Of a stretch of 64,000 nucleotides of DNA, positions 31,783 through 33,792 are shown piece after piece (the first letter of the stretch is position 1; every line of letters begins with the position of its first letter). Both the position numbers and the translations under genes were made by a program. Source of the stretch: Candidatus Rokuibacteriota bacterium (GTDB lineage Bacteria; Methylomirabilota; Methylomirabilia; Rokubacteriales; CSP1-6); the NCBI GenBank assembly GCA_003221695.1, contig QHSX01000048.1, forward strand, positions 1 through 64,000. The letters are read 5' to 3'. The notes beneath the pieces were generated by a model. That model ran no database searches and was not told the origin of the DNA. It saw only the letters and a program-made list of their open reading frames with translations.

Positions 31783-31792
31783 ATGGTAACAT
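31783..31792. promoter_or_regulatory. Overlapping divergent -10-like boxes
   Basis: TACCAT on the minus strand (31788-31783) is 8 nt before the ATPase ATG at 31774. TAACAT on the plus strand (31787-31792) is 7 nt before the ATG at 31800. The start codons are only 25 bp apart. This is the same leaderless divergent layout as at 12.1, 18.6, 39.4 and 57.8 kb. Confidence 0.45.
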
Positions 31793-31799
31793 GCGGCGC

Positions 31800-32144
31800 A
31801 TGACGGCCCCCGGCGAGTGGCGCTGCGCGGCGGCGAGCGTGCCGCCCGGCCGCACCGCGACCTTCCGTCTCGAGTGCGGCGGGCGCAGCGTGAACGGATT
31901 CGTCGTCAACTTCGCCGGCGGCTATCACGCGTACGTCGACCGGTGCCCGCACGTCGGCACGCCGCTCGACCTCTGGCCCAACGAGTTTTTCACCGAGGAC
32001 GGCCGGGCGCTCGTCTGCTCGACCCACGGCGCGATCTTCGAGCCCGACACGGGGTTCTGCACCGGCGGCCCGTGCGCGGGCGACCGGCTGACGCGCCTGC
32101 CGCTCCGGGTGGAGGACGCGTCCCTCGTCGTGACCTGCCCATGA
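31800..32144 (+). CDS. Small Rieske-type [2Fe-2S] ferredoxin
   Basis: A 114-residue soluble Rieske protein. The cluster ligands lie in CPHVGTPLD (about residue 47) and [10 protein letters not shown] (about residue 73), with the ending [16 protein letters not shown] typical of Rieske ferredoxins. Such proteins feed electrons to ring-hydroxylating oxygenases or act in unknown redox steps; no oxygenase lies nearby. ATG 31800 is 7 nt after the TAACAT box. An in-frame ATG at 31791 lies inside that box and is less likely. Confidence 0.87.
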
Positions 32145-32255: not shown

Positions 32256-33062
32256 ATGGCGGACAGGCGCATCGCGCTCGGCGACGTCCCGCGTTACGTG
32301 CGGAGCGGGATCGCGCTCGGGATCGGCGGCGGGCCGGTCATGGTCACGCCGATCGCGATGATCCGTGAGGTCCTCCGGAGCGGCGCGCGCGACCTCCACG
32401 TGGTCGCGTCCTCGACGGGAGGCTTCGGCATCGACCTGATGATCGGCGCCGGGGCCGTCGCCTCGGTGGAGTTCGCCCAGATCGCTCTCAACGAGTTCGG
32501 GCCGGCGCCGAACTTCCGCCGCTACGCGGAGAGCGGCCGGCTCCGGTGCCTCGACCACACCTGACCCGGGCTCCTCGCGGGGCTCCAGGCGGGAGCCCAG
32601 GGGATCCCGTTCATGCCGGTACGGGGTCACGTCGGCTCCGACTACGAGCGATTGCGACCCGAGTTCCGCGTCATCTCGAACCCGTGGGCACCGACCGAGC
32701 GCGTCATGCTGGTGCCCCCGATCGTTCCCGACGTGGCGCTGATCCACGCGATCGCGGCGACGAGGGACGGCACGCTTCTGCTCGACCACATGGAGGACGA
32801 CGCGCTCCTCGCCCAGGCGTCGCGAACGGTCGTCGCGTCGGCGGAGCGTATCGTCGCGTCGGAGGAGCTCCGTCGCACCGGTGACGGCGTGATCCTCGAG
32901 GGGATCCACGTCACGGCGCTCGTCGAGGCTCCCGGCGGCGCCAGGCCGACGCTCGTCCGCGGCGTCTCCCCCATCGACGCCGACCAGATCCGCGAGTACG
33001 TCGCCGCCGCGGTCGACGACGCGGCGTTCAAGCGCTACCTTGACCGCTACGTCTACGACTGA
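32256..33062 (+). CDS. CoA-transferase alpha subunit (GctA/IpdA-like) with in-frame TGA: putative selenoprotein
   Basis: A 268-residue family I CoA-transferase alpha subunit if codon 103 (TGA, 32562-32564) is read through. Before it stands RRIALGDVPRYVRSGIALGIGGG and CLDHT. After it the same frame continues PGLLAGLQAGAQGIPFMPVRG, GSDYERL and the C-terminal VEAPGGARPT, all in family order, to a normal stop. There is no other lesion and no start or ribosome site after the TGA. A perfect 7-bp hairpin with loop AGGCG starts its loop 22 nt after the TGA, fitting a SECIS. It overlaps the beta-subunit gene. A nonsense mutation is the alternative. Whether relatives have Cys here needs an alignment. 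Confidence 0.75.
32580..32598 (+). promoter_or_regulatory. Candidate bacterial SECIS hairpin
   Basis: GGGCTCC (32580-32586) pairs perfectly with GGAGCCC (32592-32598) around the 5-nt loop AGGCG. The loop begins 22 nt after the TGA and has G as its second base, satisfying the bacterial SECIS model. The E. coli fdhF loop also begins AGG. An alternative longer-range pairing uses 32568-32574 as the 5' arm. Confidence 0.65.
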
Positions 33063-33792
33063 CATCGCGCGATACACCCGGGAAGAGCTGATGGCGTCCG
33101 TCATCGCCCGCGAGGTGCGCGACGGCGAGACGGTGGCGGTCGGCACGCTCGCCGCGATCCCCGCGTGCGGTACCTTGCTGGCCCACTTCACCCACGCGCC
33201 GCGCGCGACGGTCATCATCATCAATCATCCGGACTACTGGCCCTTTCGCGGCGGCTCGAAGGAGTTCTACGACTTCGCGCAGCGGGGGAAGATCGACCTC
33301 TTCTTCCTCTCGGGCGGCGAGATCGACCGGCGCGGCAACCTGAACCTCATGTTCGTCGGAGACCACGAGCGGCCTCGGGTCCGCTTCCCCGGCGGCGCCG
33401 GCGCGGCGATGCTCTACTACATGCCCCGCCGCGTGGTCGTCTTCCGTGCCGAGCACTCGCCCCGGATCTTCGTCGAGCGCGTGGACACGGTGACGAGCCC
33501 GGGATCGACGCCTCTCGATGTCGTTCGCCCGGGTGGTCCGTGGAAGGTCGTGACGCCGCTCTGCGTGTTCCGCTACGACCCGGGCGGCGCGGGGCTCGTC
33601 GTCGAGTCGCTCCACCCGGGCGTGAGCCGGGAGGAGCTCGGGCGACGAACCGGCTTCGCCCCGGCATACGATGGGGCGGCCGGCGTGACGCCCGAGCCGA
33701 CGAGCGAGGCGCTCGATCTCCTCAGGACGCGCGTGAAGGACGCCGTGGCCCGGATCTACCCGCGTTTCGCCGCGACCGCCTTCGCGCGCTAG
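33040..33792 (+). CDS. CoA-transferase beta subunit (GctB/IpdB-like)
   Basis: A 250-residue family I CoA-transferase beta subunit, the partner of the preceding gene. Recognisable are YTREELMASVIAREVRDGETVAVGT at the N-terminus and the conserved GGAGAAMLYYMPRRVVVF and DRRGNLN segments. Such pairs move CoA between short or cyclic acids; relatives act in glutaconate or steroid-ring degradation. The TTG start overlaps the alpha gene by 23 bp; ATG 33091 is an in-frame alternative but would remove conserved residues. That this subunit is intact and coupled argues that the alpha gene, despite its TGA, is functional. Confidence 0.85.
   Translation: MTATSTTDIARYTREELMASVIAREVRDGETVAVGTLAAIPACGTLLAHFTHAPRATVIIINHPDYWPFRGGSKEFYDFAQRGKIDLFFLSGGEIDRRGNLNLMFVGDHERPRVRFPGGAGAAMLYYMPRRVVVFRAEHSPRIFVERVDTVTSPGSTPLDVVRPGGPWKVVTPLCVFRYDPGGAGLVVESLHPGVSREELGRRTGFAPAYDGAAGVTPEPTSEALDLLRTRVKDAVARIYPRFAATAFAR

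Follow-up and report, generated by a model that had tools for sequence, protein, structure and literature searches.

An α-subunit gene with the class I CoA-transferase fold in Candidatus Rokuibacteriota bacterium contains an in-frame UGA codon. Comparative evidence strongly supports the view that this codon, UGA103, is decoded as selenocysteine (Sec) with the aid of a downstream hairpin. We rate the family that this gene represents as new among selenoproteins and, catalytically, as a new variant of the class I CoA-transferase fold. Our reading, to which we assign a probability of roughly 0.8, is that α and its β partner form a two-subunit selenoenzyme in which a catalytic Glu of the β-subunit would have been replaced by a selenol in the α-subunit, and which would act on CoA thioesters in carboxylate catabolism. 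This reading was built from sequence comparison and structure prediction, starting from a window of 64,000 nucleotides (contig QHSX01000048.1, positions 1 to 64,000), by which we mean the whole stretch of DNA that was analysed (Table 1).

Table 1. Positions in the window of the α gene, its predicted Sec codon and hairpin, and the adjoining genes.
Feature	Position	Strand	Remarks
Small Rieske [2Fe-2S] protein gene	31791..32144	+	PF00355; position upstream of α conserved in Rokubacteria
α-subunit gene, class I CoA-transferase / IpdA fold (PF01144)	32256..33062	+	One in-frame UGA; 268 aa with Sec103
In-frame UGA, predicted Sec103	32562..32564	+	Starts helix 103-115 (AlphaFold2 model); aligned with IpdA Glu105
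SECIS-like hairpin GGGCTCC-AGGCG-GGAGCCC	32580..32598	+	Conserved GGC in apical loop; TGA-specific, covarying
β-subunit gene	33091..33792	+	Ile44 at the GctB Glu54 position (class I catalytic Glu)

The original prediction had described a TGA at codon 103 within a single GctA-like reading frame, an intact coupled β gene and a perfect 7-bp hairpin with the loop AGGCG, and all of these were borne out. The α frame has no further internal stop, and its match to PF01144 (residues 13–224 of the read-through protein) spans the TGA. AlphaFold2 modelled the read-through protein with a pLDDT of 95.9 and a pTM of 0.93. In the gapless pairs compared, dN was lower than dS on either side of the TGA. The β gene, which lies in a different reading frame from the α gene, starts at an ATG (33091) that is conserved in homologues and not at the mechanically assigned TTG at 33040. 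The hairpin sits 16–34 nt downstream of the TGA, and its loop begins at position 32587, leaving 22 intervening bases.

We searched 60 relatives, all 95 genomes of the phylum (Methylomirabilota) and 297 sampled Desulfobacterota. Throughout these sets, each stop-bearing match had exactly one internal stop, which was always TGA; such genes numbered 22 in the phylum and accounted for 18 of the 18 strong matches in Desulfobacterota. A contig scan added two Desulfarculaceae records, one deltaproteobacterial metagenome-assembled genome (MAG) and one Tectomicrobia MAG. Once repeats were removed, about 42 distinct TGA genes remained, from Rokubacteria (Methylomirabilota), Desulfobacterota and Tectomicrobia, and the TGA occupied the identical column in every gene that was retrieved and aligned. 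At this column, approximately 65 homologues carry Cys; they come from Alpha-, Beta- and Gammaproteobacteria and Nitrospinota, among other groups. Because one contig-scan pattern required Cys, the Cys:Sec ratio does not represent a frequency; the whole-genome searches were free of this bias. Many of the compared sequences are related, so these counts are not independent. The tree placed Sec in two separated subfamilies, both of which have Cys relatives. The second and more distant one includes three Rokubacterial genes (L027, L028 and L167) with TGA at the same column, together with Cys sisters (L166, L113 and L120), and its hairpin differs in sequence (GGATGC/GCATCC). The presence of TGA in a distant subfamily with Cys sisters implies that Sec and Cys have been exchanged more than once.

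Taken from a single sequence, the hairpin is insufficient evidence, because the window holds comparable hairpins in antisense: in two antisense read-through frames a TGA is likewise followed by a perfect 7-bp hairpin. The z-score of the α hairpin was only −1.6. Comparison across genomes lifts this weak signal above chance. Among 26 distinct TGA genes, 183 of 208 possible pairs were formed, compared with a mean of 114 and a maximum of 129 in 2,000 trials of synonymous-codon shuffling. The Desulfobacterota TGA genes (18 genes, 2 of which are also within the 26-gene set) formed 114 of 144 pairs, compared with 77 after shuffling (maximum 93). The 64 Cys genes stayed at the null expectation (208 of 512 pairs versus 203), and the hairpin therefore tracks the TGA and not the protein sequence. 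Covariation was 0.323 against 0.138 in shuffled sequences (0/500), and every slid register of the hairpin gave 0.086 or less. The hairpin also draws on rare synonymous codons: the Gly codon of the 3′ arm was GGA in 20 of 23 cases and GGG in the other 3, against a background in which GGC is the usual Gly codon and GGA makes up 8%, and where Ala stood in place of Gly its codon was GCA in 3 of 3 cases, versus a usage of 3%. Both lines of support that the original prediction had named, homologues extending across the TGA with Sec or Cys in one column and a conserved hairpin, were thus found: in both sets of TGA genes the hairpin paired beyond what synonymous-codon shuffling gives, it covaried, and the Cys homologues lacked it.

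The host genome contains the machinery for Sec decoding. Genes for tRNA-Sec (C52:11779), SelA (C52:13191) and SelB (C52:14578) lie at one locus, and the SelD gene (G000:C35:113035-113976, L213) itself carries an in-frame TGA, so α is not the only clear selenoprotein gene of this host. Of the 22 Sec-form genomes in the phylum, 20 gave a SelB match, as did the four other Sec-form genomes checked; the two exceptions are MAGs (G033 and G034) in which bin gaps could account for the absence. The sole member of the phylum with Cys (G070, 70% complete) gave no SelB match. We regard the assignment of α to a selenoprotein family as strongly supported because the TGA/Cys column is conserved, the hairpin is TGA-specific and covarying, and tRNA-Sec, SelA, SelB and SelD are all present in the host. 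The suggestion that this might be a new selenoprotein family is likewise strongly supported, as a 2026 inventory of 119 prokaryotic selenoprotein families has no PF01144 or CoA-transferase entry (PMC13188914). Full-text literature searches returned no selenoprotein with a CoA-transferase fold, although one may be listed in Deng et al. 2026 or Haft & Tolstoy 2025. The former concerns selenoproteins in groundwater MAGs and, according to a review, includes one Methylomirabilota MAG with 63 of them.

The nearest solved structures to α, identified with Foldseek, were IpdA (TM 0.92–0.94, approximately 30% identity), GctA and AibA. In a profile alignment, Sec103 lies opposite the only residue in the region that differs between PDB entries 6co6 (E) and 6coj (A), and the title of 6coj, IpdAB E105A, identifies that residue as Glu105 of IpdA. 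The same alignment places Gln of GctA and Gly of AibA at the Sec column. A 2018 paper on IpdAB reportedly found Glu105 essential to activity, and IpdAB is not known to be a selenoprotein. The catalytic Glu of class I CoA-transferases resides in the β-subunit (Glu54 of GctB); IpdB has Gly at this position (PMC5380842), and AibB has Cys (PMC7756340). We compared 129 α/β pairs, which include related rows and a few genes fetched twice, with three Sec rows having no readable β. The β Glu was present in all ten pairs with His or Leu at the α position, in none of the seven pairs with Glu and in none of the 109 pairs with Sec or Cys, where Ile, Leu, Phe, Tyr or Gly replaces it. In these sequences, the pattern reads as relocation of the catalytic residue from the β Glu to the α-subunit. 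Of the earlier description of α as a GctA-like CoA-transferase, the fold (PF01144 in α and β) therefore stands, and the label is valid for the fold only, because the catalytic β Glu is missing throughout the family. Since Sec occupies the place of the IpdA Glu and the partner subunit has lost its catalytic residue, a new family of CoA-thioester selenoenzymes is likely.

Gene neighbourhoods point to CoA-thioester steps in carboxylate catabolism. The neighbours counted were Pfam-supported or annotated, with some named from sequence, and scoring in high-GC DNA was confounded by antisense ORFs. In Desulfarculaceae, the neighbours were an acyl-CoA synthetase, an acyl-CoA dehydrogenase and a TAXI-TRAP transporter (named from sequence, not Pfam). 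Other Desulfobacterota had an AMP-binding ligase, a Liv-type ABC transporter, or an enoyl-CoA hydratase with an amidohydrolase, and Rhodobacterales plasmids had a CaiB-type CoA transferase, a 2-hydroxyacid dehydrogenase, an aldolase, a kinase and a ThDP enzyme. Because the neighbourhoods differ between lineages, no single substrate is indicated. The Pfam-scanned neighbours included no steroid (KstR2-type) catabolic cluster. The Rieske gene lies upstream of α in 11 further Rokubacterial loci (at least 12 with the window) and was not a neighbour of α in the loci examined outside Rokubacteria. Most of the other Rokubacterial loci have a gap of approximately 450 bp after the Rieske gene; in one of them (L124) the gap was identified as a SnoaL-like gene, which is absent from the window.

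Three further kinds of locus were observed. On plasmid 1 of Paracoccus denitrificans PD1222 (L175; α/β genes PDEN_RS22910/22905) and in L176 and L177, a conserved operon combines Cys-form α and β genes with genes for a third CoA transferase, of the CaiB type, a 2-hydroxyacid dehydrogenase, a class II aldolase, an FGGY kinase, a ThDP enzyme annotated as acetolactate synthase and a molybdopterin oxidoreductase. This operon appears to encode a catabolic pathway, as yet uncharacterised, in bacteria that are in culture. On a plasmid of Diaphorobacter sp. HDW4B (L178), genes for cysteine dioxygenase and 3-sulfinopropanoyl-CoA desulfinase are found close to those for Cys-form α and β and a third CoA transferase, a possible organosulfur link. 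In a deltaproteobacterial MAG (G097; L209/L056), an apparent single operon carries a Sec-form pair and two CoA-transferase-like α/β pairs, along with an amidohydrolase and an enoyl-CoA hydratase.

Considering these observations together, we propose that Sec most likely supplies the active site with a selenol that has no redox function and that serves to cleave or transfer acyl-CoA in the catabolism of carboxylates. In this proposal, the downstream hairpin would help UGA103 to be decoded as Sec, Sec103 would stand where the C–C hydrolase IpdAB has its catalytic Glu105, and the catalytic residue would have shifted from the β Glu to an α selenol (a thiol in the Cys homologues). Carboxylic acids would be imported, activated to CoA thioesters and catabolised. 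At the α/β interface, the selenolate may attack the acyl group of a CoA thioester or act on it as a base, with a selenoester acyl-enzyme as the probable intermediate; water would then cleave the acyl group or a C–C bond, or an acceptor would take the acyl group. We infer from its position only that Sec would be a nucleophile and not a base or acid. The more specific version, in which Sec is a non-redox covalent nucleophile that forms a selenoester with the acyl group, the residue having moved from β to α with Glu, Cys and Sec exchanged in at least two subfamilies, is one that we hold tentatively, at somewhat short of even odds.

The pair could instead be a true CoA-transferase, inter- or intramolecular, with the α Sec or Cys carrying the acyl group in place of the β Glu. 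The fold, the α/β operon and the CoA-thioester gene context would all fit such an enzyme, and loss of the Glu is compatible with transferase activity because ThnP, a class I member in which Gly replaces the Glu, retains intramolecular CoA transfer (PMC11659651). We nevertheless consider this rather unlikely: the closest structure, IpdAB, is a hydrolase that lacks the β Glu and has no detectable CoA-transferase activity (PMC5380842), and CaiB, which could itself transfer CoA, is a frequent neighbour within Cys-form operons.

The original prediction had also raised the idea that Sec brings redox chemistry or regulation to CoA transfer, and the enzyme might in that case be a CoA-transferase of the ordinary kind in which Sec103 acts as a switch or senses peroxide. 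Thiol oxidoreductases make up the majority of known selenoproteins (PMC13188914), and the upstream Rieske gene would suit a redox role in Rokubacteria, but this gene does not accompany α elsewhere. An ordinary CoA-transferase would also be expected to retain the β Glu, which is lost in all Sec/Cys pairs, and Sec occupies the position of a residue, Glu105 of IpdA, whose catalytic role is not redox. The aligned homologues share no second Cys or Sec (Cys97 is not conserved) and no UxxC/CxxU motif. We rejected a redox role, which we consider very improbable, because Sec has no conserved Cys partner.

Two further alternatives concern Sec itself. Decoding of the UGA as another residue, or general readthrough, has a near-negligible chance of being correct, given that Cys alternates with UGA in the column, that a UGA-specific hairpin is present and that the host encodes tRNA-Sec, SelA, SelB and SelD. 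A pseudogene, point mutation or assembly error, with the TGA as a real, gene-breaking stop, would agree with the single-sequence view (the modest hairpin z-score and the chance hairpins elsewhere in the window) but was rejected on the grounds of conservation, with the same TGA recurring in independent assemblies from three phyla, dN below dS on both sides of it and a confident fold for the whole α protein.

A selenoenzyme of this kind would add CoA-thioester chemistry to the selenoproteins, which are otherwise mostly redox proteins, and its carriers are widespread uncultured soil, groundwater and sulfate-reducing bacteria. The α gene usually carries the label CoA-transferase subunit A, and annotation of the Sec forms probably often goes wrong, or stops short, at the UGA. 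The natural series of Glu, His, Cys and Sec at one α position, in step with whether the β Glu is gained or lost, suits the study of a catalytic residue moving between subunits, and with Cys members in culture (Paracoccus denitrificans is one) the reaction can be tested directly.

Like known prokaryotic selenoproteins, this family combines a UGA with a bacterial-type downstream hairpin and Cys homologues, whereas the known families are mostly thiol-redox proteins with UxxC/CxxU motifs and none has PF01144 (PMC13188914). GctAB (glutaconate CoA-transferase, PDB 1poi) shares the PF01144 α/β heterodimer, the fold and the operon order, but has the nucleophile Glu54 in GctB where the present family has Ile, Leu, Phe, Tyr or Gly, and Gln in GctA where it has Sec or Cys. 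AibA/AibB (3-methylglutaconyl-CoA decarboxylase, PDB 5mzw) offers a precedent for reuse of the fold in another reaction with a thiol replacing Glu; that thiol is Cys56 of the β-subunit AibB, in contrast to Ile44 here (PMC7756340), and AibA has Gly in contrast to Sec103. IpdAB (a COCHEA-CoA hydrolase of steroid ring cleavage; PDB 6co6, 6coj and 6con) resembles the window pair in its α fold, in the position of its key residue and in a β-subunit without the catalytic Glu (PMC5380842), and differs in having Glu105 where this family has Sec or Cys and, as far as the Pfam-scanned neighbours show, in its gene neighbourhood.
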